This document shows, piece after piece, positions 1 to 23,331 of a DNA stretch of 23,331 nucleotides. How positions within the stretch are numbered: position 1 is the stretch's first letter; the number at the start of each line of letters is the position of its first letter. The notes beneath the pieces are model-generated. The model ran no database searches, was not told the DNA's origin, and saw nothing but the letters and a program-made list of their open reading frames with translations. The position numbers and the translations under genes were made by a program. This stretch comes from a virus: the IMG/VR virus record IMGVR_UViG_3300039018_000265, positions 1-23,331 of that record; one strand, given 5' to 3'.

Positions 1-19
1 GTCTTAATGCAACAATTAT

Positions 20-33
20 ACACTTGCAAGTGT
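20..33. promoter_or_regulatory. Perfect 14-bp palindrome (candidate operator)
   Basis: ACACTTGCAAGTGT is a perfect inverted repeat directly upstream of the small terminase gene. It covers the proposed -35 hexamer TTGCAA (24-29), so a bound dimer would block or modulate that promoter. No regulator for it is identified in the window. Confidence 0.45.
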
Positions 34-51
34 CAAAAAAACTGTTAGATT
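24..51 (+). promoter_or_regulatory. Candidate leaderless promoter for the packaging genes
   Basis: TTGCAA (24-29), a 16-nt spacer and an extended -10 (TG at 43-44, TAGATT at 46-51) lie just before the GTG at 59. Only 7 nt separate the -10 from the start codon, so transcription should begin at or next to the GTG. There is no Shine-Dalgarno sequence. The -10 is part of the recurrent CTGTTAGATTT motif, which is also seen at 2349-2359. Confidence 0.5.
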
Positions 52-58
52 TGCGCTT

Positions 59-607
59 GTGAAAGATATAACTAGAACGGTTTCAAAAAGCACAGACGTA
101 GGAGCGCAAGACGTAGCAATTATCCTTAATATCACGCCAAAAAGGATTGCGGAGCTAACAAAAAAAGGAGTGCTAACAAAGAACGCGAATAGAAAATACG
201 CGATCCCACAATCGGCGACTGACTACATAAGATATTTGCAAGGAATCACAGGAAAGGAAATCCCAGTCAGCGCGGACGTTCCATCGCTTGAAGAATCAAA
301 AGCAAAGAAAATGTATTTCGACGCGCAGCTGGCAGAGGCAAAACTGGCAGAAGCAAAGATGGATTCAATCCCACTTTCGACCGTAGTAGAGCGAGACTCT
401 AAAATTGGAGTAGCAGTCAGAACCGCAGTAATGCGTATTCCTAACGACATGCCAGGACAGCTAGAGGGACATGCTCCCGCTCAGATGAAAAACATTCTTA
501 CCGATTGCGTCCGCTCGATCCTAGAGGAACTCTCAGACGATCAATCGGAGCTATGGACAAACATAGAAAAACGCAGAACCGCTCAAGAGGAGGCTAGTCA
601 TGAGTAA
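59..607 (+). CDS. Terminase small subunit (Nu1-like)
   Basis: A 182-residue protein directly upstream of, and overlapping by 8 nt, the GpA-type large terminase. Residues about 15-60 look like a winged helix-turn-helix (recognition segment around ILNITPKRIAELTKKGVL), as in Nu1-type small subunits that bind cos DNA. A charged, Ala/Glu/Lys-rich helical stretch at about 75-105 suits oligomerisation or contact with the large subunit. The start is GTG at 59; it has no ribosome binding site but lies immediately after a promoter-like sequence, so leaderless translation is plausible. The role is to recognise phage DNA and recruit the large subunit. The family call rests on position plus the HTH pattern; the exact family is not certain. 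Confidence 0.75.
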   Translation: MKDITRTVSKSTDVGAQDVAIILNITPKRIAELTKKGVLTKNANRKYAIPQSATDYIRYLQGITGKEIPVSADVPSLEESKAKKMYFDAQLAEAKLAEAKMDSIPLSTVVERDSKIGVAVRTAVMRIPNDMPGQLEGHAPAQMKNILTDCVRSILEELSDDQSELWTNIEKRRTAQEEASHE

Positions 608-2318
608 TGAGTTCCGCCGCGCAATTAGACCGCCGACGAGTCTAAGCGTTTCTGAATGGTGCATGAAAAACGTGAAGGTGATGGGAAGCGAACGCGCTCC
701 ATTCTTTGACGTAAACCAGTTTCCATGGTGGCGTTTTCCGCTAGATGCAATGGGAAATCCAGAGATAAAAAAGGTCATCGTTGTAGCTCCAACGGGGGCG
801 GGTAAATCAACAGCAATCGAGGCGTTACATTCCTACATCGTTGCGGAAGACCCAGGCAGAAGTCTCTACGCTTGCCAGTCAAACGACAAGGCGAAGATAT
901 TTGTTGAGACGCGATTGAACCCGTCACTAAAAGCGTGCAAAGCGTTAGATGGTTTATGGGCTGAGGATCGACACGCGAGCCGTAAACACGACATCATTTT
1001 CCCTCATATGGCGATGAGTTTCGGCGGGGCTAACATGTCAAATTTCCAAGAGGTTTCTTGTCGCTATCTATTCGGAGATGAAACGTGGACTTGGACGGAA
1101 GGGCTGATTAAAGAGTTTTTCGCTAGGCATCATGATCGGTGGAATCGAAAAGGCTATCTGATCTCACAAGGCGGCAAGAAGCAATCAGAGTTTTTTAAAG
1201 AGTGCCAAAAAGGCGATGAATACCACTTGCATTTTGCATGTCCGCAATGCGACATTTTACAGCCGTTCACGGACGCCGGCATAGTTGTCGATCTAACAAA
1301 AAACGAGCATGGAGAAATTGACTACCTAGCTACAAAGCAAACGGCGCGGGTAAAATGCGCGAATTGTGAGCATGAGATTTCGGACACAAGCAGGAATCGC
1401 AGGTCGCTATCGAACGCGTCTCAATACATTCTAACGAGAAAAGGCACGGAAGAAGGAACGATTTACTGCACCTTTAACCGCATGGCGATCTGGTGGGTAG
1501 AATGGGGCGATATGTGGGAGCGTAGGACGCGCGCTCTCGAAGCGTTAAAGCGCGGCGTGTATGATCCTTACCGGCAATACAAGCAGAAAGATATGGCAGA
1601 GTTCTGGGATGATGAATACATCCAAGAGAAAGTCGATATTATCGGCGGCGGCTACGAGAAATCAGAGATGACATCCGAGAAACTGCCAAACGAGATTTCA
1701 AGATTTATAACGTGCGACCGCGGACAAGATCATTACTGGCACATCGCGCAAGCAGGGACAAGCGATGGCAAACTGCACGTTTTAAGCGAAGGTTATTTGC
1801 ACGACGAGCGCAACATTAGAGACGTGCAAGCAACTCTAGGAGTGCCTAACAACTGCGTTTATGTCGATAGTTCATGGAACTTTGACGAATCTTTAGACAT
1901 CTGCGAACGCAACGGATGGATCGGAATACGCGGAGACCAACGCGATTTCTTCCCGCATAAAGACAGGGACGGAAACCCGATCCAGAAAACGTATAGCAAA
2001 TACAACTTTAAGAAATGCCGCAACGGAAAGATTGCGAAATACTTCTTTGTCAGCACGAGAATTTACAAAGACATGATGCAAAGATTGCGGCAACATTCGC
2101 AAATTGTCACGCCAGATGACGTTTCAACCGCTTACAAGTCGCACATGGAAAGCGAAATAAAAGTTGATTCAGTCAATGCCAAGACGGGAGAGGTTACGCA
2201 CTACTGGAAACAGATTAAAAAGCAAAACCATTTGCTCGATTGCCAGTATTACGGAGTCGCCGTGGGTGACTTAAAAGGCGTATTTGCGCACCACGTAGAA
2301 ACAGAATTGTTAGACTAA
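600..2318 (+). CDS. terL: Terminase large subunit, GpA family
   Basis: A 572-residue packaging motor. The ATPase half shows Walker A APTGAGKST (63-71) and Walker B ending in RYLFGDE (155-161, D160 and E161). Two CxxC pairs (C214/C217 and C253/C256) form the zinc-binding insert typical of the lambda GpA family. The nuclease half has candidate metal-binding acidic residues at D373 (TCDRGQDHYW), D423 (VYVDSS) and D547 (HLLDCQYY). The ATG at 600 overlaps the end of the small subunit and has a good GGAGG ribosome site. It pumps DNA into the prohead and cuts it, in GpA phages usually at cos sites. The length is somewhat below that of lambda GpA. Confidence is high because motifs and context agree. 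Confidence 0.95.
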   Translation: MSNEFRRAIRPPTSLSVSEWCMKNVKVMGSERAPFFDVNQFPWWRFPLDAMGNPEIKKVIVVAPTGAGKSTAIEALHSYIVAEDPGRSLYACQSNDKAKIFVETRLNPSLKACKALDGLWAEDRHASRKHDIIFPHMAMSFGGANMSNFQEVSCRYLFGDETWTWTEGLIKEFFARHHDRWNRKGYLISQGGKKQSEFFKECQKGDEYHLHFACPQCDILQPFTDAGIVVDLTKNEHGEIDYLATKQTARVKCANCEHEISDTSRNRRSLSNASQYILTRKGTEEGTIYCTFNRMAIWWVEWGDMWERRTRALEALKRGVYDPYRQYKQKDMAEFWDDEYIQEKVDIIGGGYEKSEMTSEKLPNEISRFITCDRGQDHYWHIAQAGTSDGKLHVLSEGYLHDERNIRDVQATLGVPNNCVYVDSSWNFDESLDICERNGWIGIRGDQRDFFPHKDRDGNPIQKTYSKYNFKKCRNGKIAKYFFVSTRIYKDMMQRLRQHSQIVTPDDVSTAYKSHMESEIKVDSVNAKTGEVTHYWKQIKKQNHLLDCQYYGVAVGDLKGVFAHHVETELLD

Positions 2319-2359
2319 CAGAATTTTTGTTGACTAACTGTTAGATTTCTGTTAGATTT
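2308..2359 (+). promoter_or_regulatory. Candidate leaderless promoter embedded in five TCTAAC half-sites
   Basis: TTGACT (2330-2335), a 17-nt spacer and an extended -10 (TG at 2350-2351, TAGATT at 2353-2358) lie 6 nt before the ATG at 2365. The stretch also holds a diverging pair TGTTAG-A-CTAACA (2308-2320), a converging pair CTAAC-T-GTTAG (2334-2344) and a fifth half-site at 2349-2359. The last two form a direct repeat of CTGTTAGATTT with an 11-bp period. Binding of a regulator here would cover the whole promoter. Confidence 0.6.
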
Positions 2360-2364
2360 CGCGC

Positions 2365-2646
2365 ATGGGAAGTGCTTCGACATCATTAAGCATTGCGAAA
2401 GCTATACGCTATGATAGCGCAGCGATTAGCAATTTACGCGCGGAGTATTCGAGACTAGCGCAAGAAATCGCTATCGACGGTGGCGGAGAAATCACAAGCG
2501 CAACTGTCAACGGGCAGTCATTTTCCAAGCAGCCAACAATGACAAAAACCGAGCGTTTATATGTCATCGAACGTTCATTGTGGCACATCGACAACAACAA
2601 TTTTTATCAGTCACGCAGAACATATTACAGCGGAGGGTATCAATAA
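2365..2646 (+). CDS. gpW-like head-tail joining protein (tentative)
   Basis: A 93-residue protein between the large terminase and the portal, the position of gpW in lambda. It has an N-terminal helix with LRAEYSRLAQE, a short beta hairpin (about 42-58, TSATVNGQSFSKQP) and a second helix (TKTERLYVIERSLWHI); this helix-hairpin-helix layout resembles gpW, which plugs the portal side of the filled head. The C-terminus is Tyr-rich. No sequence-level identity to gpW can be shown by eye. The ATG is 6 nt after a -10-like element, and no ribosome site is visible. Confidence 0.5.
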   Translation: MGSASTSLSIAKAIRYDSAAISNLRAEYSRLAQEIAIDGGGEITSATVNGQSFSKQPTMTKTERLYVIERSLWHIDNNNFYQSRRTYYSGGYQ

Positions 2647-2649
2647 ATT

Positions 2650-4137
2650 ATGCTAGTCGATCAATTTGGAAACGCTATTAAATTTGCACATGCGGCGACT
2701 AGATCACCGCGGAGAGGGCCGGTATTGCCAACGCCAAACACGGACATAAATAAACTTATTCCGCTTCATGATCGAAACATCTTGTGTGGATTATCGCGCA
2801 GATTGTTCGTGAATATGGGAGTTCCAAGGGCGGCAATTTTACAAAAAGCAGATTTCAGCATCGGTGAGGCATGGCTTCCAAGCTACACTGGAAAAGTTGA
2901 CAAAGCAGACGGCGAATTCGTTGCTGAGTATTTCCGCAATGTTTGGTTTCCAAATTGTGAAGTTCGCGGCGGTGGCAGAGATTGGCAGTCAATTTTGACA
3001 AATGCCAGTATCGGGATGGATAGGGACGGCGACGCTTTCTTGCTCCTAACAGCCGATCCAAGCGGAGAATTTCCACAGATTCAGCAGATACCTGGGCATT
3101 GCGTAATGACTAAGGGCAACTCTATTGACCGCATGAAACTTGAGGAAGGTGAATACAAGGGGCGCGTTATAAATGACGGCATTATTTATGGCGAGCGCAA
3201 CCGCCCGATTGCTTATCGTGTTTCAACTGGAGATGACGACATGGATTTCTATGACGTTCCCGCGTATTCAATGATTCATCTCATGGAGGATTGCTACCAA
3301 GAGCAACGCCGAGGTTTGCCAGCATTCACACATGCCTTAGAAGATTTGAAACACTGCTTGCAATCAAGCGAATATGAGCGAGTGCGGCAAATGATTATTT
3401 CATCCATAGGATTGATAGAGCACAATGAATCAGGCGGGGCAGATTTAGAAGACCCAGCAATGGAGGGAGTGCAAACTGGCACTTGTCCAGTAAACGGACT
3501 ATTTACCGAGACTTACGAGCAAGGACAGATTCGATATTTCAAAGCTAATAGCGGATCGAAAATGGAGCAATTACGGCATGAGAACCCAGGCGAGATTTGG
3601 GAATCATTCCATGATCGCATGATTCGCGCGGCTCTTGTCGGCATTAAGTGGAGCTACTCGATGGTATGGAAAGCGGCGGGGCAAGGCACAGCAGAACGTG
3701 CAGACGTATTGAGAGCAAGACGTGCCATCGTTTCCCGCCAAAAAACATTACGCTATGCGGCGAAAAGAATGTTAATTTACGCATATTCGGTGCTTCAAAA
3801 ATCAGGCAGAATTCCGCAAGTCGATGCGCCTTTCTCGTGGGTGTTTTCAACACCCCCGATTCTAACCGTAGATGACGGACGCGAGCAGCAAGCAATGCGC
3901 GAAGGTTATCGCTTAGGCAGCATCAACATGACCGAGGTGCAGTCATCTAACGGAAAACCAATCGACGAATTTTACCGTGAACGTGCGGAGGAAATTGCAT
4001 TGCGGAAAATGATTGCGCTAGAAGTATCCACAAAATACGACGTGACAATTGAGGATCGCGAAATGGTAATGCTAACACCTAACGACATGTCAACGGCAAC
4101 AGCCACGACACCAGAACCAACAACTCCAACAGAATAA
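2650..4137 (+). CDS. Portal protein, lambda family
   Basis: A 495-residue protein after the gpW position, matching lambda-family portals in length and general character. These form the dodecameric DNA gate at one head vertex. Supporting segments are the N-terminal part with LIPLHDRNILCGLSRRLFVNMG (about 38-59), the conserved acidic stretch MDRDGDAFLL (about 124-133), IIYGERNRPIAYRV and MIHLMEDCYQEQRRGLPAF (about 208-226). The C-terminus ends in a Thr/Pro-rich tail. It starts 3 nt after the upstream stop; GGAGGG lies rather far upstream. The lambda portal is processed, but no cleavage site can be claimed here. Confidence 0.9.
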   Translation: MLVDQFGNAIKFAHAATRSPRRGPVLPTPNTDINKLIPLHDRNILCGLSRRLFVNMGVPRAAILQKADFSIGEAWLPSYTGKVDKADGEFVAEYFRNVWFPNCEVRGGGRDWQSILTNASIGMDRDGDAFLLLTADPSGEFPQIQQIPGHCVMTKGNSIDRMKLEEGEYKGRVINDGIIYGERNRPIAYRVSTGDDDMDFYDVPAYSMIHLMEDCYQEQRRGLPAFTHALEDLKHCLQSSEYERVRQMIISSIGLIEHNESGGADLEDPAMEGVQTGTCPVNGLFTETYEQGQIRYFKANSGSKMEQLRHENPGEIWESFHDRMIRAALVGIKWSYSMVWKAAGQGTAERADVLRARRAIVSRQKTLRYAAKRMLIYAYSVLQKSGRIPQVDAPFSWVFSTPPILTVDDGREQQAMREGYRLGSINMTEVQSSNGKPIDEFYRERAEEIALRKMIALEVSTKYDVTIEDREMVMLTPNDMSTATATTPEPTTPTE

Positions 4138-4141
4138 GATC

Positions 4142-4504
4142 ATGGCAAACGAAGGATATTTAACAGTCAATCTAAAGGCTAACAAGTCAGGCGCAAACAT
4201 CGCTCAGAACTATTCAGCGTCATTTAGCATGACGGGGAATGAGATGATGCAAGGAACACAGAACATTGGCACGACTGCCGAGCTTGTTGGATTTGGAAAC
4301 ATCACAGGCGCGCCGCAAATGGTTTCAGTTCGAAATCTTGATGCTACGAATTACGTAGAGCTTGGCGGTGATAGTGGTCTAACAGTTTTTAAGATCGTAG
4401 TTCCAAAAGGTGGAATTGCAGTATTCAAAGCAGCAAGCGCAACGCTATATGCTAAGGCAAACACGGCAGCCGTAAACATTTTAGTGCAAGCAGTAGAAAT
4501 CTAA
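4142..4504 (+). CDS. Small beta-rich virion protein, function unknown
   Basis: A 120-residue acid-poor protein between the portal and the prohead protease. The second half alternates beta-like segments around VSVRNLDATNYVELGGDSG and VPKGGIAVFKAASATLYAKA. This pattern recurs, from memory, in small uncharacterised phage proteins of the capsid or tail region. A decoration or head-vertex role would fit the position, but no family is firmly recognised. It begins 4 nt after the portal stop and ends 4 nt before the protease start, so it is part of the same transcript. Confidence 0.6.
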   Translation: MANEGYLTVNLKANKSGANIAQNYSASFSMTGNEMMQGTQNIGTTAELVGFGNITGAPQMVSVRNLDATNYVELGGDSGLTVFKIVVPKGGIAVFKAASATLYAKANTAAVNILVQAVEI

Positions 4505-4508
4505 CATA

Positions 4509-5255
4509 ATGAAGAATCAATTAGTAAATCACATAGCAACAAAGCAAATTTTCGCTTGTGACTTCAGGCAATTATCACAAGCAATCAACGCATCGCTAGA
4601 TGATATTGAAAGGGACGACTTTTTCCAACTGCGTCCAGAGTCTAAAATAGAAAACGGTATCGGCATGATTTGGATCCAAGGATTGCTTACAAATGACGTT
4701 CCTAAAATCTACGAAAAAGCGGGAATTGTTACCACATACGACACCATTAAAAGCGAAATCGAAGGATTGATTTTAGCGGGGGCGCAAGCGATTCAGATCA
4801 ATATAAATAGTGGCGGTGGAAGCGTGAACGGAGCGATTGAATTATCACGCTGGATCGCGTCTCTGCTGGTCTCTACGGCGGCACTTGTTACCTCTTGCGC
4901 ATGTAGCGCGGCTTATATGATCGCGGCGGCTACAGACCGCATCACAGCGTCAGAAACGGCAATGGTAGGAAACATCGGAACGATAATGACATGGACTGAC
5001 TACACCACGCTGGATGAGCGTACGGGAATTGAAGAAAAGGCTCTGACTAACGAAGGAGCAACTCTTAAATCAACTTTTCATATTGAACCAAACGAGGAGC
5101 AGCTAGCATTTTTACAAGAAACGCTAAACCAGCACGGGCAAGAATTCGGAAACTTTATCATTTCACGCCGCGAGGTTGATTCAGAAGTATTCCGCGCTGG
5201 CTGGTATAGCGGTCAAAAAGCGTTAGATTTGGGACTCATTGACAATCTAACATAA
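4509..5255 (+). CDS. Prohead protease, S49/SppA-ClpP-like
   Basis: A 248-residue serine protease of the SppA/S49 type used by lambda-like phages to mature the prohead. The oxyanion-loop segment SGGGSVNGAIELSRWI (101-116) is typical. The nucleophile is predicted to be S133 in CACSAAYMIA. K187 in the EGATLKSTFHIEP segment matches the catalytic lysine of bacterial SppA-type Ser/Lys dyads, and VGNIGTIMTWTDYT (153-166) matches the core fold. The C-terminal WYSGQKALDLGLID is the usual closing motif. It directly precedes the scaffold and capsid genes, as expected. In lambda, the protease gene contains the scaffold as an internal start; here the scaffold is a separate gene. Its last codons and stop lie within the first ATCTAACA repeat. 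Confidence 0.92.
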   Translation: MKNQLVNHIATKQIFACDFRQLSQAINASLDDIERDDFFQLRPESKIENGIGMIWIQGLLTNDVPKIYEKAGIVTTYDTIKSEIEGLILAGAQAIQININSGGGSVNGAIELSRWIASLLVSTAALVTSCACSAAYMIAAATDRITASETAMVGNIGTIMTWTDYTTLDERTGIEEKALTNEGATLKSTFHIEPNEEQLAFLQETLNQHGQEFGNFIISRREVDSEVFRAGWYSGQKALDLGLIDNLT

Positions 5256-5308
5256 ATCTAACAAAAATCTAACAGAAAAAGATTTGACAATCTAACAGAA
5301 ATCTAACA
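5245..5308 (+). repeat. Five direct ATCTAACA repeats with 11-bp phasing
   Basis: ATCTAACA begins at 5245, 5256, 5267, 5290 and 5301. Steps are 11, 11, 23 and 11 bp, close to whole turns of DNA, so the copies would lie on one face of the helix. The first copy overlaps the protease stop codon, and the last two fill the spacer of the promoter at 5284-5312. This looks like a cooperative protein-binding array. Confidence 0.85.
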
Positions 5309-5312
5309 TAAT
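5284..5312 (+). promoter_or_regulatory. Strong sigma70-like promoter for scaffold and capsid, predicted leaderless
   Basis: TTGACA (5284-5289) is followed by exactly 17 nt and CATAAT (5307-5312). The ATG of the scaffold gene is at 5320, 7 nt after the -10, so the expected transcription start is at or one base before the ATG. The 17-nt spacer consists of one ATCTAACA copy and most of a second. A dedicated promoter here would supply the high capsid expression that virion assembly needs. Confidence 0.7.
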
Positions 5313-5319
5313 TATCCGC

Positions 5320-5757
5320 ATGAAGAATCTCTTCGCCAATAAACACGATTTGGAAGCAGCACAAAGCAAAATTGTTTCGCTAGAAACTGATCTTACCGCG
5401 CTTCAAAATGAACTAACAGAATCACAATCGGCATCAGCTTCTCATGTAGAAGCACTTTCCGCATTGCAAACAGAAAAAGCCGAAGCCATTTCTTCGCTAG
5501 AAAATCTAACAGTTAGATTTGAAGCGTCGCAAAATGAAATCGCTCAACTGAAAGACGCTGTAAAACTTGCTGAGGAATCGGCAACTAGCAAAGCTGTTTC
5601 GATTTTAGCTGAACACGGTCACGAACCAATTCAGTTAGAGACGGACGGCAAAGAAACTTTATCAGCGGAGCAAATCCGCTCGAAAATCGCAACAATCCCA
5701 GATGCGAAAGCTCGCCTTGAGGCAACGCTTAAAAATTGGGATAAACTCAACAAATAA
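5320..5757 (+). CDS. Candidate capsid scaffolding protein
   Basis: A 145-residue, highly charged protein between protease and capsid gene. Residues about 8-90 form a long predicted coiled coil with heptad-like Leu spacing (SKIVSLETDLTALQNELTES and onwards). The C-terminal part (about 95-145) is a short charged helical region that could contact the coat protein. Position, size and coiled coil fit a scaffold that organises coat subunits and is then removed by the S49 protease. The start follows a promoter with almost no leader. A palindromic operator-like sequence lies within the gene (5502-5520). Confidence 0.7.
   Translation: MKNLFANKHDLEAAQSKIVSLETDLTALQNELTESQSASASHVEALSALQTEKAEAISSLENLTVRFEASQNEIAQLKDAVKLAEESATSKAVSILAEHGHEPIQLETDGKETLSAEQIRSKIATIPDAKARLEATLKNWDKLNK
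5502..5520. promoter_or_regulatory. 19-bp palindrome of two ATCTAAC half-sites
   Basis: AAATCTAACAGTTAGATTT reads the same on both strands except for its central base. It is two copies of the recurrent half-site facing each other, as a dimeric repressor operator would be. It lies inside the scaffold reading frame, about 200 bp downstream of the promoter at 5284-5312, so it could act as a downstream operator or transcription block. Confidence 0.55.
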
Positions 5758-5776
5758 TTTCAACTAACTAACTAAT

Positions 5777-6640
5777 ATGGCTAATACATTTGACGCATCA
5801 TTGGTGGTAGACGTGCTTCGCGATTCAGCGATCACCGTTCTCCAATCTCGCCTTGCTCCGCTGAACGTCTTCACAAAAGACTTTTCCGCTGATACCATCG
5901 CTCCACGTAAAACTGTTCTCGTTCCTCTTGCTACTGCTGGCGGCACGACTCAGACCAACGCGACTAACTTCGAGTCTGGAAACAGCACTTTGGGAGTTTC
6001 TACCGTTGTCGTGGATCAATACTCCAACTCGTTCGCTTTGACCAACGCAGAAATCAATCAAGGTTTCCGCATTGAGAACATCGCGAAAATCAACCTCCAT
6101 AATTTGGCTAACAAGATTATGGACATCGCGCTTGCTCCAGTTACAACGACCAACTTCGGCGCCGCTGTAGTTGACGTTGACACCGCGGCTCTCGTTACCG
6201 CTGCTGAACTCAGAACGCTTTGGGCGGCTCTTAAAGATGGCGACGTTCGCAACCTTGTTGTTGACGGTAGCATCTATGCAAACTTCCTTCCTTCTAACCT
6301 GGAAGCGTTCAATCTTGCAACTGGCGGTCGCAACACTGGCATTTATGGCTATGACTTCTTCGGTTACAACAACCGTTGGACGGGTGCCGGCGCAACCATC
6401 AAAGGTTTCGCATGTTCTCCACAAGCCATTGCTTGCGCTTCGGGTGTTCCTCAGAACTCTCCAGCATCTAGCGACATGATCTCTCAGGAGAACGTGGTTA
6501 TTCCTGATCTTGGACTGACCGTCCAAATGAACATGTGGGTATCTCGCGCAACTCGCGATTTGTGGTGTTCGTATGATGTAATGTTCGGCGCAGCAGTTGC
6601 CGACACTACCGCTCTTAAAATCATCAAACTTACTCCTTAA
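5777..6640 (+). CDS. Major capsid protein
   Basis: A 287-residue protein in the coat-gene position after protease and scaffold. The sequence is Ala/Asn/Thr-rich with few charges, begins MANTFDASLVVDVLRDSAI and carries FALTNAEINQGFRIENIAKINLHNLANKIMDIAL (about 84-117) as a long backbone-type helix. Residues about 240-287 (LGLTVQMNMWVSRATRDLW) end in strands expected of a HK97-type fold. Codon choice differs sharply from neighbouring genes: no CTA leucine codon was found by eye, and AAC, CTT, CGC and GTT are preferred, as expected for the most highly translated phage gene. There is no Shine-Dalgarno sequence; the leader is a CTAA repeat. The exact coat family is not determined. Confidence 0.82.
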   Translation: MANTFDASLVVDVLRDSAITVLQSRLAPLNVFTKDFSADTIAPRKTVLVPLATAGGTTQTNATNFESGNSTLGVSTVVVDQYSNSFALTNAEINQGFRIENIAKINLHNLANKIMDIALAPVTTTNFGAAVVDVDTAALVTAAELRTLWAALKDGDVRNLVVDGSIYANFLPSNLEAFNLATGGRNTGIYGYDFFGYNNRWTGAGATIKGFACSPQAIACASGVPQNSPASSDMISQENVVIPDLGLTVQMNMWVSRATRDLWCSYDVMFGAAVADTTALKIIKLTP

Positions 6641-6882
6641 TGCTTCTAACTGGAAAACTTCTTTTAGCTTTCGCGGATGGCACAATTAAACTTGTGTCAT
6701 CTGCCAAGGAAGCGTCGGAATTTGCAAAAGGAAGAAAGGCTATTGGTTACTCTCTAAACGTAGCCATGACTTTCGGACACAACAAAGCCGATCAACCAAA
6801 AGAGGAAGCAGCAGAAGTAAAAGAGGAAGTGAAAAAAGATGATTCATTGCCAGTAAAAACGGCAAAGAAAAAAGCAAAGTAA
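6640..6882 (+). CDS. Small basic/acidic protein after the capsid gene, unknown
   Basis: An 80-residue protein whose ATG shares one base with the capsid stop (TAATG), which implies translational coupling. The N-terminal half (LLTGKLLLAFADGTIKLVSSAKEASEFAKGRKAIGYSL) could form a small folded domain. The C-terminal half is Lys/Glu-rich and low in complexity (about 50-80, ending KTAKKKAK), so it is probably disordered. It may be a capsid-associated or head-completion protein; no family is recognised. It ends the capsid unit, and a stable hairpin follows 30 nt later. Confidence 0.6.
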   Translation: MLLTGKLLLAFADGTIKLVSSAKEASEFAKGRKAIGYSLNVAMTFGHNKADQPKEEAAEVKEEVKKDDSLPVKTAKKKAK

Positions 6883-6911
6883 TTTTCTGTATTGTGTGTG
6901 ATTCGTAGCAT

Positions 6912-6939
6912 GGCGGGGGAGGGTAAAAGCTCTCCCGCC
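6912..6939 (+). terminator. GC-rich hairpin downstream of the capsid unit (weak or partial terminator)
   Basis: GGCGGGGGAG (6912-6921) pairs with CTCTCCCGCC (6930-6939), 10 bp with one G-U, around an 8-nt loop. No U-run follows; the downstream bases are TAACTAAAAAAC. It is therefore not a classical intrinsic terminator. It could cause partial termination or protect the 3' end of the abundant capsid mRNA, setting a step down in expression before the connector genes. Confidence 0.5.
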
Positions 6940-6954
6940 TAACTAAAAAACAAA

Positions 6955-7290
6955 GTGCCAAGTGAACTACAAAATTTCGTATCTAACGCATTTTCCGACG
7001 CTCGTTCAACGATAGGCGGGGAATCATTAGTTATTGGAACGGGTGCAACACTAAGCGCAGTTTTATCGGAAATCACATCGGCAGACACTTATGGCAATAC
7101 GGGATTTATTCCATCGGCATTGTTTCAGGCGGTCGTAGATTCAGACGAGTTCACCACCGCTTATCCTCTTGAGTCTAAAAACTACGTTGGGAAAAAAGTT
7201 ACGGCGCGCGGCATTGTTTTTCGTCTAACGGAAGTCATGAACGGCGCATCATTTGTGACGCTAAAACTCGAATCAATTACTAAGTCGTGA
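6955..7290 (+). CDS. Head-tail connector/completion protein (gpFII-like position)
   Basis: A 111-residue protein in the place of lambda FI/FII-type head completion proteins. It shows alternating beta segments (ESLVIGTGATLSAVLSEI at about 23-40; KKVTARGIVFRLTEVMNG at about 79-96), consistent with the small beta-barrel folds of this group, but no motif proves it. The predicted GTG start at 6955 lies 15 nt after the hairpin and has no ribosome binding site; a start further downstream is possible but would remove the N-terminal helix. The stop overlaps the next GTG (GTGA). Confidence 0.55.
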   Translation: MPSELQNFVSNAFSDARSTIGGESLVIGTGATLSAVLSEITSADTYGNTGFIPSALFQAVVDSDEFTTAYPLESKNYVGKKVTARGIVFRLTEVMNGASFVTLKLESITKS

Positions 7291-7976
7291 AAGCCACATT
7301 AGATCACAAATTGTTAGAGAAAAACTTGAAGAAAGCGTCAAAGGTTTTCGGAGACTCGACAGCACAAAGCACCTTCCGTTGGGGAGTCCAGATCGCGCGT
7401 GATTTATCAGGAGCGACTCAAGCATTTGGACGCGGGAAAAAAGCACAAGAAGTGCAGATTTTAGCTATTTGGAATGACGCTCTAAAAGTCATTAACCGAG
7501 TAGCAGACGGGAAAAAAGCAAGTCTAACAAATCCGCAAATGGTCATTTCATGGATCGACCAAAACAGAACGAAAAAAGGGAAAAGAACTCGACTGCTCCC
7601 AGATTCAGCAAAGAAAAGCGCAACAGAAACAGTATTACGTGAAGCAGTCAAAATTAAATCTGCTAGGGCTGGTATGGCAAAAGGCGCATGGATCGGCGCG
7701 GGAATGGACATCGCAAAACGCCAAGAGGGAATGCAGAAAATAAGCATCGGGAAAAACTTTCTTGGCTATGCGCAAAAGTATTCTTCACTAGGAAATACAT
7801 CGGTGAAAAAAAAGATTTTCGATTGTGACGCAATCCTGAACAACGACACAAAACAATCAGCTTCGGGCTACGTTTTGCGCGATAATCAGAAACAAAAAGC
7901 GGTAAAAACTGGATTGCAGAAAACGATCAAGTGGTATGAAAAAGCGGGAACGGCAAAACTTGCAAAACTAAAATGA
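7287..7976 (+). CDS. Tail completion-type protein (gpZ/HK97 gp10-like position)
   Basis: A 229-residue strongly basic, Lys/Ala-rich protein translated from a GTG that overlaps the previous stop and ends in ATGA with the next gene. A helical N-terminal part (about 1-75) is followed by a central region rich in basic residues (NRTKKGKRTRLLPDSAKK, about 93-110). The C-terminal third contains KNFLGYAQKYSSLG and ends in a Lys-rich stretch. Gene order places it where lambda Z-type and HK97 gp10-type proteins lie, between the head connector and the tail terminator. The assignment is by synteny only. Confidence 0.5.
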   Translation: MKATLDHKLLEKNLKKASKVFGDSTAQSTFRWGVQIARDLSGATQAFGRGKKAQEVQILAIWNDALKVINRVADGKKASLTNPQMVISWIDQNRTKKGKRTRLLPDSAKKSATETVLREAVKIKSARAGMAKGAWIGAGMDIAKRQEGMQKISIGKNFLGYAQKYSSLGNTSVKKKIFDCDAILNNDTKQSASGYVLRDNQKQKAVKTGLQKTIKWYEKAGTAKLAKLK

Positions 7977-8410
7977 CATCAACACTTATACTTAAAGCAG
8001 TTAAAGCATACATCGCTTTCCAAGCGGATTTGCTGAACTATGCGGCATTATTGGAATTGCCAGTATTTATCGATGGCGACGAAGATATATTAGAGCCAGC
8101 ATACATCGCCATCACATGCACGGGAACGGATGAGCATGATATTCTGCGCGGTGTTTACGAGCTAGGAATAGCAGTGGCGATCATCACAATACCAAGAGCA
8201 GATGAGGGGACGACGGTCGCAGAAAAAGACACTCTAGAAGCACAACTTTATAATATCTTAGCTGACAATGTTTCATTTGTCGAATGGTCAGACGATGACA
8301 ACCTAACAAGTAAAATCTTCCAAGTCAGAGAGTTCGATATGAACACTGAAGCTGATGACGAGGTGAGAGCAAGCAAAATTTCATTCACCCTGACTGGGTG
8401 CAAAATCTAA
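7973..8410 (+). CDS. Tail terminator-like protein (gpU position)
   Basis: A 145-residue acidic protein starting in the ATGA overlap with the upstream gene. The order helix (LILKAVKAYIAFQADLLNYAALLEL), strand (EPAYIAITCTGTDEHDILRGVYELGIAVAII), helix (KDTLEAQLYNILAD) and C-terminal strands (ASKISFTLTGCKI) is what is expected of U-type terminators that cap the tail tube. It lies immediately before the tail tube gene, the usual neighbour. It is called from layout and synteny, without a diagnostic motif. Confidence 0.6.
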   Translation: MTSTLILKAVKAYIAFQADLLNYAALLELPVFIDGDEDILEPAYIAITCTGTDEHDILRGVYELGIAVAIITIPRADEGTTVAEKDTLEAQLYNILADNVSFVEWSDDDNLTSKIFQVREFDMNTEADDEVRASKISFTLTGCKI

Positions 8411-8425
8411 CAACAAAATAATACA

Positions 8426-8851
8426 ATGAGCGCAACAATTTATTCAACGGCAAAATTTGGACTAGCAAGCGAGGCTAGTTCAACAGGACTATTCATCGCT
8501 AGTCTTTCCTACGGTGGGACATCTGAAACCGCATTAGCACCTAACCACGTTGGGCAAGATGTGGGTATTGGTGTTTACAACGAAAAGATCGACATCACAG
8601 CGAGCGGAGTGATCGCCGTAAAAGGCGCGGGAATGGTTCCTGGTATCGCTGACTTGCTAGTATTAGCAAACACATCGGTTGACTCTCTAAACGTCTTTAC
8701 AGACCTATTAAAAGTAACACCAGTGGCTAACGCTTCGATAATCATAACGGGAGCAACTCTTGCACGTTCAAACAACGGATTCGAGACTGGCGATCTAACG
8801 GGAATCTTCCTCCCTGGAGTTGACACCACAGTTACCTATACCGCGAGTTAA
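8426..8851 (+). CDS. Major tail tube protein (likely)
   Basis: A 141-residue Ala/Gly/Thr/Val-rich protein with many predicted strands and few charges, which is typical of tail tube subunits. It sits between the terminator and the chaperone genes, the canonical place. The C-terminus FETGDLTGIFLPGVDTTVTYTAS resembles the closing strands of tube folds. The start is ATG with an AT-rich leader (CTAACAACAAAATAATACA) and no Shine-Dalgarno sequence. It is short for the family, and direct homology cannot be checked by eye. Confidence 0.6.
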   Translation: MSATIYSTAKFGLASEASSTGLFIASLSYGGTSETALAPNHVGQDVGIGVYNEKIDITASGVIAVKGAGMVPGIADLLVLANTSVDSLNVFTDLLKVTPVANASIIITGATLARSNNGFETGDLTGIFLPGVDTTVTYTAS

Positions 8852-8863
8852 AGTCTAACAACT

Positions 8864-9406
8864 ATGAAAAATGAAAACAAATTTAGCACAGGCGATTTAA
8901 ACTTCGCGTGTGCTTTAATGTCGCTAGGAATACCGCTTACGGAAAGTAAGCCGTGCAGCATCATTGCGCATGAAAACGGACACACATACTCGCGCTATCA
9001 TTTCGAGAGTCACAGCGTATGCGGGAAGCATATTACCTCCGACATGAATAATGCATGGAGCGATATTTCAAGAGTGCCAGAAAATCACCCTATGCGATTT
9101 CTATCAAATTTCGTTAGAAACGGGCGGGGGAAAATGACCATTAGCGACTGGCTAGAATTAGCGCAAGAAATGTTTGACATTGGAAATGTTAGAAACGAAG
9201 AAACGGCAAAGCATCATATTTCCATGTTTCCAGATAGCGAGGAAAGCTATGCGCTAGCGTTTGTCTATAACCGCGTTGAGCTATACGCATTGCACAACAA
9301 GGCATCAAAAGAAATCTACATGAGCAACGGAGACGCACAAGCATTGATCGACATCGCGCTTCCAAAATATCAACGGCAAGAACTTATTAACAGATTAAAT
9401 AGATGA
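8864..9406 (+). CDS. Unrecognised 180-residue protein inserted in the tail cluster
   Basis: A soluble protein with no family I recognise. A His/Cys-rich part (about 30-58, with AHENGHTYSRYHFESHSVCGKH) could bind metal; the rest is mainly helical (SDWLELAQEMFD; AQALIDIALPKYQRQELINRL). It lies between tail tube and tail chaperone, where lambda-like phages usually have no gene, and its stop overlaps the chaperone start (ATGA), so it is translationally coupled to tail assembly. It could be an extra assembly factor, a tail-tube companion or an accessory gene. It begins 12 nt after the tube gene, preceded by GTCTAACA. Confidence 0.65.
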   Translation: MKNENKFSTGDLNFACALMSLGIPLTESKPCSIIAHENGHTYSRYHFESHSVCGKHITSDMNNAWSDISRVPENHPMRFLSNFVRNGRGKMTISDWLELAQEMFDIGNVRNEETAKHHISMFPDSEESYALAFVYNRVELYALHNKASKEIYMSNGDAQALIDIALPKYQRQELINRLNR

Positions 9407-9783
9407 AAGATAGAAACACAGAATTGTTGGGATCATGGCTAGGCGTGGTCACATTAGGCGAAAGAACATTGCGGCCATTAGGCATCGGATTAACCGTCGT
9501 ATTGCGCAGACTCGATAACGCCAACTTCTCAAAAAGCGACAGAGAAGTAGAGGCGATTGACATTCTAGAAATCGTTTACGTGATGTATTTAACAGGAAAA
9601 GAATTGGCATTATACGTAGCTAAAACAAAAGACGAGCGGGAAGAATTGCTTTCGCTTTTTGCGGCTGAACACGCGGAGGAAATCGACGGCGTAATGACAA
9701 CTGTTATCGAATCAGCAAAACGCATCGCAATAGCAACGATGGAATCTAACAATTCGGGAAAGGAGACGAGCCATGTCTCCTAG
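9403..9783 (+). CDS. Tail assembly chaperone, lambda G-like (zero-frame product)
   Basis: A 126-residue largely helical protein just before the tape-measure gene, the position of lambda gpG. Residues about 44-100 (REVEAIDILEIVYVMYLTGKELALYVAK and onwards) are predicted helices. Six codons from its end the mRNA reads G GGA AAG (9756-9762) exactly in frame, the same slippery heptamer lambda uses. Most ribosomes should read through to the TAG at 9781-9783 and give this short form. The two products would guide tail tube assembly around the tape measure. The start codon overlaps the upstream stop. Confidence 0.82.
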   Translation: MKDRNTELLGSWLGVVTLGERTLRPLGIGLTVVLRRLDNANFSKSDREVEAIDILEIVYVMYLTGKELALYVAKTKDEREELLSLFAAEHAEEIDGVMTTVIESAKRIAIATMESNNSGKETSHVS

Positions 9784-9998
9784 CAGTCGCGGAGTATTTC
9801 GCGCTAAGGCATGGCGTATCGTCGAATCATTTTATTTGGGACATGGATACATCGCGTTTTCTGCAAATCATGTATTGCGAATCTAACAGAAATGGATCAT
9901 ACTTGCGATATGCAAACGCTATCGAATGCGACGAGACAAATAGGAAATTTGAACAACTAGAAAAACAATTTGAATTATGGCAATCGGAACATCAGTAA
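9403..9998 (+). CDS. Tail chaperone GT-like fusion made by -1 frameshift (9403..9762 joined to 9762..9998)
   Basis: The stretch 9784-9976 has no other assigned gene, but in the -1 frame it is open from the slippery site to TAA at 9996-9998. The fusion has 120 zero-frame codons and 78 further codons, 198 residues in all. The added part starts GDEPCLLAVAEYFALRHGVS and is a normal-looking, charged, partly helical domain ending just inside the tape-measure gene. Ending over the next start is usual for T domains. The shift follows the lambda G/GT scheme (Xu, Hendrix and Duda described its wide conservation in long-tailed phages). In the family, the T domain recruits tail tube protein. No downstream pseudoknot was looked for in detail. 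Confidence 0.8.
9756..9762 (+). promoter_or_regulatory. -1 programmed frameshift site GGGAAAG
   Basis: The heptamer is phased as G GGA AAG in the chaperone frame (TCG GGA AAG GAG), so P- and A-site tRNAs can re-pair on GGG AAA. It is identical to the lambda gpG-T site. It is followed at once by GGAGACGAG, a purine-rich stretch resembling a Shine-Dalgarno sequence. The -1 frame after it stays open for 78 codons. Confidence 0.85.
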
Positions 9999-12593: not shown

Positions 12594-12637
12594 ATCTAAC
12601 AGTTTTTGATTGCAAAAGTCTAACAAGTAATTACAAT
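12594..12637 (+). promoter_or_regulatory. Candidate promoter for the fibre module with two TCTAACA sites
   Basis: TTGCAA (12610-12615), a 16-nt spacer and TACAAT (12632-12637) lie 14 nt before the ATG at 12652, so the leader would be only about 8 nt. One ATCTAACA (12594-12601) lies upstream and one GTCTAACA (12618-12625) lies inside the spacer. The -35 is the same hexamer as in the terminase promoter. Confidence 0.5.
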
Positions 12638-12651
12638 ACACCACAGAATAA

Positions 12652-12993: not shown

Positions 12994-14612
12994 GCGACAT
13001 ACATATTTACGTAGATCGAGAGCAAACAGTCCAAGCAATTACCATTGCGCCAACTGGAGCGAGGGGCGCGCCTGGCACGAACGGCGCAAACGGCACAAAC
13101 GGCGGCTCAACTAACGCATGGAACTATAACGCCAAGACCAACGCAACGAGCGGCTACCCGACCGATGGCCACCTGATCTGGAACAACGCCACGCAGACGA
13201 GCGCGACTAGCATCATTGTTTCGCACCTGACCGATGACGACACCGACATCGAGTTGTTTCTATCATTTTTCGTTCTGAATCAAAAAATCTTCATTCAAAA
13301 TCGGGATGACTCATCGCAGAACCAAGTCTGGCAAATCACAGGCACGCCAACGGTGACAGGTGCAAATACATCGACCGCATACTACACTTTTCCAGTGACC
13401 TTGGTGTCATCGGCAGGAGCGGCATTTACAAACAATCACTCTCTTTTATTCGGTCAAATCGTAGTAGCTACAAACGCCGTAACAAGCGCAACGACCAGCA
13501 ATGGGACTTGTGATCTGGATATCGAATCCTTGACGCTGAATACATGCAATAGCGATTTTATATTTTTAGCTGACGGAGCTTATGACCTCGGAACAGGCAG
13601 TAATTATGTAAGGACGGCGTATATAAACACGGTTTTTTCTGGATCGTTGACAGTTGGCTACGACTCAAATGGTTCAAAATTGGGTCAAATTATAATTTAC
13701 TCAGACACAGAGGGATCTAGCACGACTATTAATCCAACAACTGGCGGGAGTGGTTTACTAACGCTACCATCTGGCACTGGCACTCTCGCGCTAACAAGTG
13801 ACATCACCGTTACTCCTACTAACACTGTCACCCTCACCAACAAAACGCTGACCAGTCCAGCGATCAACTCCGCGACATTTGGCACGGCGGCGACATTTAA
13901 CGCGACGAGCTACACTTATGGAGCGGGGGCGGCGGCAGCGCAGCGAACGGCTTTGGGATTGGTTAGTAACGCAGACACGCTCACCTCGGTTTACGAATGG
14001 ACAAAAGCAACGGGAGATTACACCGCGACAAACGTAGGCACAGGCACATCTTCAACAGCGACCAACGTGATGCAGTTAAACACTCTGTCAACGGCAGGTT
14101 CAAGCGCTTTACTTCGCTCAGACGCAAACGATTTTCGGGCTTGGCAAAAATACTCAGGTAGTCGCCAAGCGGTTGATTGGTCTAAAAAAACAATACATTT
14201 TGTCCGTATTAGCTCTGACGCTTTTTCAGGTGCGGATACAATTTTCCGCATTTACCTTGGACTGCCGTCAACGCTGACAACCGTGCAGGATTTGCAATCG
14301 GCAAACACCGCGATTGGGTTTAAAGTCATAAATGGAGTAATTTTTGTGCAGGTGTCAAACGGCAGCGCGGTGACAACAACAACAACGGGAGTTACTATGT
14401 CGGCTTGGCTTGTGTATGACTGCATGATTCAGTCAAACGGTGACGGCACATGGACGGCTACCGTAAACAGCACAACCGTAACGGGATCGGGTGCGCCATC
14501 CGCTACAAGCGCAGCAAGTAATGCAGCGTTGGTCATGTCAGCAACTAACGGCACTACCGCAGCAGCTAGACGATTTTTTGTAAACAATCAAAAATCGATG
14601 CAATTCGATTAA
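12990..14612 (+). CDS. Tail fibre / receptor-binding protein
   Basis: A 540-residue protein. Residues about 20-35 carry a short collagen-like Gly-X-Y run (GARGAPGTNGANGTNGG). The middle contains the fibre repeat signature TNTVTLTNKTLTSPAINSA (about 273-291). The C-terminal part (about 385-540) is a Ser/Thr-rich beta domain resembling a lectin-type jelly roll, with KTIHFVRISSDAFSGADTIFRIYLG (about 396-420). This order (attachment, shaft, binding domain) is normal for receptor-binding fibres. It would recognise the host surface. Codon usage in the collagen-like part is more GC-rich than that of neighbours, suggesting modular exchange. Confidence 0.8.
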   Translation: MSDIHIYVDREQTVQAITIAPTGARGAPGTNGANGTNGGSTNAWNYNAKTNATSGYPTDGHLIWNNATQTSATSIIVSHLTDDDTDIELFLSFFVLNQKIFIQNRDDSSQNQVWQITGTPTVTGANTSTAYYTFPVTLVSSAGAAFTNNHSLLFGQIVVATNAVTSATTSNGTCDLDIESLTLNTCNSDFIFLADGAYDLGTGSNYVRTAYINTVFSGSLTVGYDSNGSKLGQIIIYSDTEGSSTTINPTTGGSGLLTLPSGTGTLALTSDITVTPTNTVTLTNKTLTSPAINSATFGTAATFNATSYTYGAGAAAAQRTALGLVSNADTLTSVYEWTKATGDYTATNVGTGTSSTATNVMQLNTLSTAGSSALLRSDANDFRAWQKYSGSRQAVDWSKKTIHFVRISSDAFSGADTIFRIYLGLPSTLTTVQDLQSANTAIGFKVINGVIFVQVSNGSAVTTTTTGVTMSAWLVYDCMIQSNGDGTWTATVNSTTVTGSGAPSATSAASNAALVMSATNGTTAAARRFFVNNQKSMQFD

Positions 14613-17419: not shown

Positions 17420-17428
17420 TCTAACAAA

Positions 17429-17680
17429 ATGAAAACAATCGGCAACAGAAAACAGGTCATGAGCGCACTTGATTTTGCGCTAGAACAAACCGATGCGACA
17501 AAGCGCAAGGATGATGAATTTACATCAGGCGAATATTATCACGCATTGATTGCCAGGGGCGTGAAAATATCCAACTCTGGCGCGATGTATCGGCTAACGG
17601 AAATGGTGGCTAAGGGCGAACTAACAAAACGTAAAATCATGATAAACGGCGCGACCACCAACCTTTACTCTAAGCCATGA
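17429..17680 (+). CDS. Small winged-helix-like protein
   Basis: An 83-residue protein. An N-terminal helix (VMSALDFALEQ) leads to a segment resembling a winged helix (EYYHALIARGVKISNSGAMYRLTEMVAKGELTKRK, about 34-68), where the last strands would form the wing. DNA binding is inferred, not shown. ATCTAACA-type sequence (TCTAACAAA) lies directly before the ATG. The stop overlaps the next gene's start. Confidence 0.5.
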   Translation: MKTIGNRKQVMSALDFALEQTDATKRKDDEFTSGEYYHALIARGVKISNSGAMYRLTEMVAKGELTKRKIMINGATTNLYSKP

Positions 17681-18915: not shown

Positions 18916-19113
18916 ATGAAACAGCTAACCAAAAAACAAAAAGAACTAGCAAAAACAATTAGCGAGGAATGTGTTGCGCGTGGATTTTGCTCACTGAAAA
19001 TGGCTTGCTTTTTAATGCAGACAACGCCGCAAGCAGTGTCAAGAATGCTTATGATTCTTTCCGCTAATGGGATTGCATATCGAGAATCAAATGGAGACAT
19101 GAGAACATGTTAA
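18916..19113 (+). CDS. Small winged helix-turn-helix protein
   Basis: A 65-residue protein. LTKKQKELAKTISEECVARGFCSLKMACFLMQTTPQAVSRMLMILSANGIAYRESNG reads as a MarR-like small winged helix: helix, then the recognition helix around TPQAVSRMLMILSANG, then a wing. It probably binds DNA. It begins 6 nt after the preceding gene, and its last codons overlap the start of the next gene by 7 nt. Confidence 0.6.
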   Translation: MKQLTKKQKELAKTISEECVARGFCSLKMACFLMQTTPQAVSRMLMILSANGIAYRESNGDMRTC

Positions 19114-19277: not shown

Positions 19278-19532
19278 ATGAAAATTACAATCAGCCATAA
19301 CTCAGCAAGTATTGACCCATCCGCAGTATATAGCGACGAACTTTTTGCAGAGGTGCAAAAGCGTTTAGAGTCAGAATATACGAAAGCGATTTTAGCGGTA
19401 TATCCAGATGCCGAGATTGATTTTAATAACGACGACAATGGTGGCATTGCAATCACAAACGCCGACGATGATGTTCGTTACGACGTGCAAACGATTTGCG
19501 AGACAGTTTTTGAAACTGGTCTTTTTTGGTAA
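19278..19532 (+). CDS. 84-residue acidic early protein, unknown
   Basis: The protein begins MKITISHNSASIDPSAVYSDELFAEVQKRLESEY and is acidic, with a helix followed by a strand (AEIDFNNDDNGGIAITNADDDVRYD) and a C-terminal helix (VQTICETVFETGLFW). It is compact, alpha/beta and without a family I recognise. It starts after repeat copy 1 and ends just before copy 2. An acidic DNA-mimic is one possibility, but this is speculative. Confidence 0.55.
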   Translation: MKITISHNSASIDPSAVYSDELFAEVQKRLESEYTKAILAVYPDAEIDFNNDDNGGIAITNADDDVRYDVQTICETVFETGLFW

Positions 19533-19574: not shown

Positions 19575-19778
19575 ATGAAACACACAACGAAATCAAAAAT
19601 ACTGGCCGCATTAAAAAGCGGGAATGCTCGGAGCTTGTCGGCACTGACAAAGCTCACACGCAGCACCAAAGTCGCCACCCGAATCAGCGACCTACGCGCA
19701 GAGGGGCATGACATCAGAAATACCTGCAAGCACCTAAAAAGTGGCGAGGTAAGATCAACCTATCAACTTTTTAACTAA
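19575..19778 (+). CDS. Helix-turn-helix protein (HTH_39-like)
   Basis: A 67-residue basic protein. KSKILAALKSGNARSLSALTKLTRSTKVATRISDLRAEGHDIRN (6-49) fits the small phage winged-HTH family with the closing signature RISDLRAEGHDI. Such proteins occur in early regions and probably bind DNA or replication proteins. The leader shares repeat copy 2. Confidence 0.65.
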   Translation: MKHTTKSKILAALKSGNARSLSALTKLTRSTKVATRISDLRAEGHDIRNTCKHLKSGEVRSTYQLFN

Positions 19779-19785: not shown

Positions 19786-19974
19786 ATGAACAATAAACTA
19801 CGAGAAAAACAGCGCGAGATTATAGCGGCAAGTATCAAGGAAAAAACACATAGAACGGTTAGTATCAAGCTGCCGATTGCGACAATAACACAACTCAAAG
19901 CGCGAGCAAAAAATCAAGGGCGGTTATTCTCGTCTTTTGTATCGGAGCTTGCGGAAAGGGGGGCGCAGTTATGA
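19786..19974 (+). CDS. Ribbon-helix-helix-like DNA-binding protein
   Basis: A 62-residue basic protein. THRTVSIKLPIATITQLKARAKNQGRLFSSFVSELAERG (21-59) has the order strand, helix, turn, helix of MetJ/Arc/CopG proteins. These bind DNA as dimers, so it is a candidate regulator of the operators in this phage. The stop overlaps the next ATG. Confidence 0.6.
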   Translation: MNNKLREKQREIIAASIKEKTHRTVSIKLPIATITQLKARAKNQGRLFSSFVSELAERGAQL

Positions 19975-20219: not shown

Positions 20220-20413
20220 TTCTAGGGCTTGCACTAAGCGGCATCGCATTTGGCTTACTAGGCGCATTTTGCCTATGCAAAGCAGCAGCAATGGAGCCAC
20301 CACAGCGCGGAATCCGTGTGGGCGGTGTTAAGCCATTCGAAAATGATGCTATCAACCGCCGCCTTGCGCTAGGTCTTAAAGCGCAAACATCTAACAAAAA
20401 CAAGAGAAAATAA
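20216..20413 (+). CDS. Small single-pass membrane protein
   Basis: A 65-residue protein whose N-terminus LGLALSGIAFGLLGAFCLCKAAA (3-25) is a likely transmembrane segment, followed by a polar, basic tail (RRLALGLKAQTSNKNKRK). A strong AGGAGGG ribosome site lies before the ATG. Its role is unknown; superinfection exclusion or membrane anchoring are possibilities. Confidence 0.55.
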   Translation: MILGLALSGIAFGLLGAFCLCKAAAMEPPQRGIRVGGVKPFENDAINRRLALGLKAQTSNKNKRK

Positions 20414-22703: not shown

Positions 22704-22707
22704 TAAC

Positions 22708-23079
22708 ATGAGTAATACACTACTAAAACTAAAAATCGACTTACTAAAAGTCATGGGCGCAAAAATCATCAACGCGAAAGACGGCATCGAATACCTGGCG
22801 ATCCCGATCAAAACAAGCGGCATGTTTTATGCTGGCAAAGGCTGCTATCTCGATCTCGACATGCGCGAGAATAAAGATGGCGAAGATCAATATGGCAACA
22901 GTCACATGCTGACAATCTCTCCTACAAAAGAGCAGCGGGAAGCTAAGGAAAGAACGCCGATTGTGGGCAATGCTAAGACATTGACATTTGGTGACAGAGG
23001 GCAGCCAGCAGCGCAAAAGCCAGCATCAAAACATCATAGCACGGTTGATGTTGGCGAAGGTGAAGATTTCCCCTTTTAA
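22708..23079 (+). CDS. Candidate ssDNA-binding protein with SSB-type acidic tip
   Basis: A 123-residue protein. Its N-terminal domain (about 1-85) contains KGCYLDLDMRENKDGEDQYGNSHMLTISPTKEQREAKERTPIVGN, a pattern shared with small phage proteins of early DNA-metabolism regions. The rest is a flexible Gln/Ala/Lys-rich linker ending in VGEGEDFPF, which closely resembles the acidic C-terminal tip of bacterial SSB (DDDIPF) that recruits replication and repair enzymes. No classical OB-fold motif is evident. It lies with resolvase and nuclease genes, consistent with replication/recombination. Confidence 0.55.
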   Translation: MSNTLLKLKIDLLKVMGAKIINAKDGIEYLAIPIKTSGMFYAGKGCYLDLDMRENKDGEDQYGNSHMLTISPTKEQREAKERTPIVGNAKTLTFGDRGQPAAQKPASKHHSTVDVGEGEDFPF

Positions 23080-23082
23080 TAT

Positions 23083-23286
23083 ATGACAACCAACCACCGC
23101 CGCGAACTGGTCGCACTCAAGCAAAAGCTGCACGGGCTAACCAGCACCGACAGCGACACTCAAGCCGCGATTTTATCAACCAGAGCCGCGATTGAAACCA
23201 TTAAAGACCATCCCGAAATGGACAGCTTTATCCTGACAGTTCAGCGGCGGGTGGCTGCGATCTTGGCGCAAACTAAAAAGAAATAA
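23083..23286 (+). CDS. 67-residue helical protein, unknown
   Basis: A Lys/Arg- and Ala-rich protein, HRRELVALKQKLHGLTSTDSDTQAAILSTRAAIETIKDHPEMDSFILTVQRRVAAILAQ, probably two or three helices. It begins 3 nt after the previous gene with a weak ribosome site. It is the last gene seen in the window; function not recognised. Confidence 0.55.
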   Translation: MTTNHRRELVALKQKLHGLTSTDSDTQAAILSTRAAIETIKDHPEMDSFILTVQRRVAAILAQTKKK

Positions 23287-23296
23287 ACACTTTCCC

Positions 23297-23310
23297 CCGT
23301 CGTGTGACGG
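23297..23310 (+). other. Short hairpin near the window end
   Basis: CCGTC (23297-23301) and GACGG (23306-23310) form a 5-bp stem with a 4-nt loop, 11 nt after the last gene. No U-run follows within view, so it is only a possible weak terminator or structure. Confidence 0.25.
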
Positions 23311-23331
23311 AACGGAATAACATAAGCCCTC

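Follow-up and report, generated by a model that had tools for sequence, protein, structure and literature searches.

The viral record IMGVR_UViG_3300039018_000265, a stretch of 23,331 bases analysed at its full length (the window), carries the short asymmetric word TCTAACA far more often than expected. From the sequence it can be taken as settled that this word makes up selected sites of regulator type in promoters, together with selected single copies inside genes. The sites could serve a regulator of the PhoB/OmpR type, most likely one supplied by the host, as operators and as scattered half-sites. This reading is favoured here, though held tentatively, because genome comparison identifies CTAACA-N5-CTAACA as a bacterial order's Pho box and because phages of three unrelated types possess the word. 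Beyond the sites themselves, we infer which protein binds them, that it represses rather than activates, what the single copies do and that the host uses this Pho box.

Enrichment of the word in the window

TCTAACA occurs 22 times on the forward strand and 7 times on the reverse strand (as TGTTAGA), while an order-2 Markov model predicts 1.9 and 0.7 copies, and in the ranking by that model no other 7-mer of the window is as over-represented. The shorter CTAACA is found 43 times forward and 8 times reverse, with 8.6 expected. A preliminary description of this DNA had reported strong enrichment from counts by eye of about 20, 40 and 7 for TCTAACA, CTAACA and TGTTAGA, and the program-made counts of 22, 43 and 7 agree with it. 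Twelve of the 22 forward TCTAACA copies are intergenic or lie at gene boundaries, though intergenic bases total just 1,553.

For the codon-aware control, synonymous codons were permuted within each gene in 500 shuffles. Coding TCTAACA was observed 10 times versus 2.55 +/- 1.56 in the shuffled genes, with 1 of the 500 shuffles reaching 10, and coding CTAACA 29 times versus 11.1, with none of them as high. The test was positive in all five motif-bearing records to which it was applied (the window, L003, L004, G002 and L097), and no enrichment of TCTAACA in genes was found in seven relatives without the motif. The enrichment, for which a count against codon-shuffled and Markov backgrounds in this phage and its relatives had been proposed, survives both. 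In-gene copies use two reading frames, xxT CTA ACA and TCT AAC Axx, and so reflect more than a Leu-Thr codon-pair habit; the shaping of codon choice as CTA ACA that had been described does occur, but the second frame is used too. Forward and reverse copies stand at 22:7 in the window, 20:8 in L004, 14:4 in L003, 8:6 in L097 and 18:23 in L152, so the polarity noted earlier holds for the first three but not as a general rule. TTGCCAG/TGCCAGT is over-represented as well, on both strands of the window (10 and 4; 7 and 6).

Promoter arrays and single copies

One group of copies lies in front of the gene starting at 5320. At 5239..5275 on the forward strand, TTGACA is followed by copies at 5246, 5257 and 5268, spaced by 11 bp (direct repeat D1). 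Next comes TTGACA-N17-CATAAT (5284-5312, within 5284..5319; 11/12 matches), the best predicted promoter in window positions 1-13000, and its spacer holds two further forward copies 11 bp apart, at 5291 and 5302, between the -35 and -10 boxes. Upstream of gene 2365, the forward promoter TTGACT-N17-TAGATT (2330-2358, within 2308..2364) has a pair of reverse-strand copies, again 11 bp apart (2339 and 2350), in its spacer and -10 box, with an additional copy at 2308. This pair is kept in the related contigs L003 and L004, whereas the -35 hexamer of the promoter is not. A weak forward promoter call, TTGCAA-N16-TAGATT (24..58; 8/12 matches), precedes terS (start 59), and the reverse copy TGTTAGAT at 43 overlaps its -10 box; this copy is conserved in L003 and changed in L004. 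Two forward copies occur at 12595 and 12619, the latter in the spacer of TTGCAA-N16-TACAAT (12610-12637) before gene 12652. Start codons fall about 6-14 bases past the -10 boxes. Promoter-like sites in total number 28 versus 20.6 +/- 3.8 in shuffles, which is not far above, so the weaker promoter calls are suggestive at most.

Other copies stand alone before start codons, all on the forward strand. The four copies that the preliminary description had named were correctly placed: ATCTAACA at 4500..4508 abuts the start at 4509 and overlaps the upstream stop codon, 8406..8412 lies before 8426, 8854..8860 before 8864, and 17420..17426 before 17429. A fifth, at 20390..20396, is slightly upstream of the start at 20415. 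As to the conservation of such intergenic positions, the copy at 4500 is kept in both L003 and L004, and those at 8406 and 8854 in L004; at the former of these, CTTTAACA or a different word is present in sister phages. Scattered copies within genes include one in TerL (1292..1298, forward, conserved in L004), further forward copies at 4378, 7523, 9745, 9882, 11379 and 12747 (9745 and 9882 conserved in L004), and reverse copies at 7312, 9187 and 21688 (the first two conserved in L004). A palindromic copy, AATCTAACAGTTAGATT at 5503..5519 within gene 5320-5757, is identical in L003, L004 and L006.

Direct repeats at 11 bp were seen in the window, L003, L004, L097 and L152. The occurrence in both orientations, the phasing and the overlap with promoters point to a protein-DNA site, and the TCTAACA element is more likely a double-stranded DNA site than an RNA signal. 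In the proposed mechanism, each copy would be a half-site for a sequence-specific DNA-binding regulator. Copies 11 bp apart, that is one helical turn and on the same face, would form operators inside sigma-70-type promoters of the structural region, and binding between -35 and -10 would block or modulate RNA polymerase. The single copies in genes and short gaps would be a second selected class that might act as stoperator-like roadblocks or titrate the regulator.

Conservation and turnover among relatives

Four IMG/VR contigs encode a TerL at least 94% identical to that of the window; DNA identity to the window is 96% for L001/L006 and L002, and about 82% for L003 and L004. When the motif was followed in these relatives, as had been suggested, most copies proved to be retained: 15 of 18 aligned TCTAACA sites are unchanged in L004, versus 32% of composition-matched 7-mers (binomial p about 1e-5), and 10 of 12 in L003. 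TCTAACA also ranks among the 7-mers with the most gains in L004 and L003 (9 and 7), which indicates that copies turn over and get replaced.

The motif is missing from the colinear relatives G023, G024, L018, L021 and G038, whose TerL is 44-75% identical. In G023/G024 (L195-L198), the promoters ahead of the counterparts of window genes 59, 2365 and 5320 carry TGCAA repeats 11 bp apart, and TCGAAAATCGA-like words occupy the same promoters in L021/G038. The promoter position is therefore common to these phages and the word specific to the lineage. The capsid cassette 5703-6897 contains no copy; it matches three motif-free contigs, L005, L007 and L035, at 96% identity, which otherwise have no DNA similarity to the window, and it looks like a recent modular exchange.

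Several other elements were observed in these phages. An element related to the TGCAA repeats of G023/G024 precedes terS in several lineages. TTTTTGACAC is found before many start codons, at an almost constant distance (mostly 19-22 nt), in L009, L010, L012, L014-L016, L031 and L032 (and in L005, L007 and L035). In sister phages, TTGACAC occurs 31 times upstream of starts versus 1.5 expected, at a distance from the start too short for an ordinary -35 box. The left ends of L001, L003 and L004 all lie at CAAGTCTCTCG, while L002 reads through it (L002:1871), a pattern that fits a physical end of the genome (cos).

The word in unrelated phages

A scan of IMG/VR for ATCTAACA-N3-ATCTAACA gave two unrelated, strongly enriched contigs, L097 and L152. 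L097 has 14 TCTAACA copies in 8.4 kb (0.8 expected) and codon-shuffle enrichment on both strands; by our reading of its open reading frames it encodes an HK97-type terminase, portal and capsid. The small protein 4142-4504 of the window (54% identity) is all that the two have in common, and TTGACAATCTAACAGAAATCTAACA of the window promoter at 5284 is present in L097 too, directly after a terminator-like hairpin and before the portal gene. No motif-bearing record was found among the TerL relatives of L097 that were searched. L152, which we read as a T4-like contig with a PhoH-like gene, contains 41 copies in 7.5 kb as opposed arrays between small genes, and TTGACA immediately precedes two of them. 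The opposed arrays at L152:422-2187 form long inverted repeats.

A bacterial Pho box with the same half-site

The chromosomal clue came from scanning genome contigs for the exact 18-mer TCTAACAGAAATCTAACA. One exact match (L164) is situated between pstS, identified by TIGR02136, and a DUF47/PhoU-like-Pit operon; another, upstream of dnaJ (L157), was taken as chance. CTAACA-N5-CTAACA was then examined in 95 genomes of the G051 order, giving 28 non-redundant loci of about 3 kb each, with 30 loci of the mirrored word as control. A phosphate gene (Na/Pi cotransporter, pstS, pstC, VTC or Pit) was present in 14 of the 28 loci and in none of the 30 controls (p about 4e-6). Most reference proteins were drawn from the matching loci themselves, and for this reason a second count used only proteins from a different locus, which recognised 12 of the 14. 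In 6 of 15 bacterial boxes TA...T follows exactly 9 bp downstream. By this comparison CTAACA-N5-CTAACA is the Pho box of the order, newly defined here. The window agrees with it in the half-site and in the 11-bp, head-to-tail direct-repeat spacing of CTAACA, with the spacer GAAAT matching in some loci, though the order may not hold the host of the phage. TTGACA was considered as a third Pho half-site and dropped, the phage spacing being 8 and not 11.

Hints at the host are weak. Homologues of the major capsid protein were detected in 15 of 388 genomes of the G051 phylum versus 1 of 301 of another phylum, and among named phages Verrucomicrobia phage P8625 has the nearest portal (28%).

If the host supplied a PhoB/OmpR-family response regulator of the winged-helix type, the exact half-site, the phasing at 11 bp and the recurrence in unrelated phages would be explained. 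So would the missing OmpR-type domain in the phages: no such DNA-binding domain scored above cut-off in the motif-bearing viral records. Phage promoters with sites for the host phosphate regulator are known from the cyanophages P-SSM2 and S-PM2d, in which PhoB binds at pstS in P-SSM2 and at one DNA polymerase, one UvsX-like and one hypothetical gene in S-PM2d (PMC10976474). The PhoB-bound promoters of these cyanophages serve few genes, in contrast to the small phage of the window, where the putative PhoB sites lie in structural-region promoters and throughout genes. The location of the phage boxes between -35 and -10 suggests repression.

A number of observations weigh against a host PhoB. The 18-mer scan behind the chromosomal clue gave 14 mostly scattered matches, near chance. 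The link to the order consists of distant capsid homologues with best matches outside its sampled genomes, and the neighbourhoods of these homologues (about 3.8 kb) lack the motif. In the bacterial layout the box is followed by 9 bp and the -10, whereas the phage pairs stand between -35 and -10; in addition, the phage has many unpaired in-gene copies, which have no partner at +/-11 bp even when a degenerate partner is included in the search. PhoB on its own leaves both the partnerless copies and the -35/-10 position unexplained. The phage may also encode a regulator of its own in the part of its genome that the record does not show. PhoB sites inside E. coli genes are described as inert and as not conserved (PMC10294691), which differs from the conserved in-gene copies here, and predicted phage Pho boxes have been called unreliable without binding tests in the case of S-PM2d (PMC10976474).

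Alternative binders and signals

The main rival is a repressor encoded by the phage, whether a ribbon-helix-helix (RHH), helix-turn-helix (HTH) or unseen protein, that binds the copies in the manner of the mycobacteriophage L5 operators and stoperators, the likeness to the Pho box being convergent; we regard it as possible but doubtful. It would account for what PhoB leaves over, namely the partnerless copies and the position between -35 and -10, and it is in line with the operators within promoters, the mostly single orientation and the presence of sites both inside genes and in short gaps. Monomer binding to asymmetric sites by L5-type repressors would explain the single copies (PMC9283540). 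The lineage-specific words at matching promoters of sister phages resemble immunity groups. Candidate proteins exist in the right arm, where most small regulator genes were not found in the non-motif relatives: an RHH protein (19786-19974) matches an Arc-like repressor profile (E 4e-4), with no relatives found when searched for, and three HTH proteins (18916-19113, 19575-19778 and 17429-17680) are also candidates for motif binding; neither the RHH nor any HTH protein could be tied to the motif. The product of 19278-19532 has a weak DinI-like match (E 0.001, below cut-off).

L5 and TipsytheTRex likewise have more than 20 asymmetric sites genome-wide, in promoters and short gaps, with orientation tied to transcription; the window differs by a half-site shorter than their 13-bp site, by 11-bp phased arrays, by copies inside genes, and by a word that recurs in unrelated phages (PMC9283540). 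For T4-like and HK97-type contigs to carry the motif, a repressor gene common to unrelated phages would be needed. The tyrosine integrase profile had no match in 21 incomplete records (the window and 20 others, the motif-bearing ones included). The stoperator likeness of the preliminary description thus stands for the layout, the mostly single orientation and the selection, but no matching repressor was identified and no integrase found. ATCTAACAC arrays adjoin a tyrosine integrase gene at L107:2669-3005 and L122:3130-3466; they are probably arm-type integrase sites, unrelated to the TCTAACA motif.

Two adjacent stand-alone DnaA domain IV proteins are encoded near terS, just left of the window start (L002:945-1202 and 1199-1471), with scores of 45.4 and 44.7 bits, both exceeding the Pfam Bac_DnaA_C cut-off of 31.5. 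A DnaA box is an asymmetric site with ACA at its end that a single domain recognises; these proteins might bind the word as a DnaA-box-like 9-mer (AATCTAACA vs TTATCCACA), which is improbable. The two words agree in little besides ACA, and DnaA domain IV is present in the motif-free G023 and G030. Relatives of protein 2 that are 64-68% identical, with a nearly identical recognition helix, occur in L176-L178 without TCTAACA enrichment; this co-occurrence test covers protein 2 alone, since protein 1 had no relatives. Related domain IV genes lie close to terS in G023 and, in L176-L178, next to a homologue of window gene 23083-23286.

An RNA signal, either boxA-like antitermination or a translation-start element, would fit the copies 9-25 nt before several starts that have no evident Shine-Dalgarno sequence, and also the forward bias of the window. 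This option, raised in the preliminary description for boxA, is very improbable in view of the conserved reverse copies in promoters, the overlap with -35/-10 regions, the palindrome at 5503-5519, the 11-bp phasing and the near-equal orientation in L097 and L152. A Chi-like recombination signal or other host chromosome-organisation signal, the former also suggested there, would suit a word that is short, asymmetric, mostly on one strand and found in genes of unrelated phages. It is scarcely credible, as phased promoter arrays are unexpected for Chi and as TCTAACA is rare in the chromosomes of the Pho-box order, each of the 95 genomes having fewer copies of it than of its mirror image (33 vs 183 in G051); this order may not be the host's.

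Implications for phage biology

One extension of the host PhoB/OmpR reading, which we consider unlikely, is that in a non-integrating phage the sites for the phosphate-starvation regulator of the host, spread over structural promoters and genes, gate late expression through PhoB-dependent repression or roadblocks, or that the genome serves as a PhoB sponge, and that unrelated phages of the same host evolved likewise. If host PhoB does bind, structural genes, beyond auxiliary ones, would be wired to the phosphate status of the host, and selected half-sites would be spread genome-wide. If the binder is encoded by the phage, the sites would represent a stoperator-like network outside the mycobacteriophages. 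With either binder, the copies described here would be a precise and testable set of sites.

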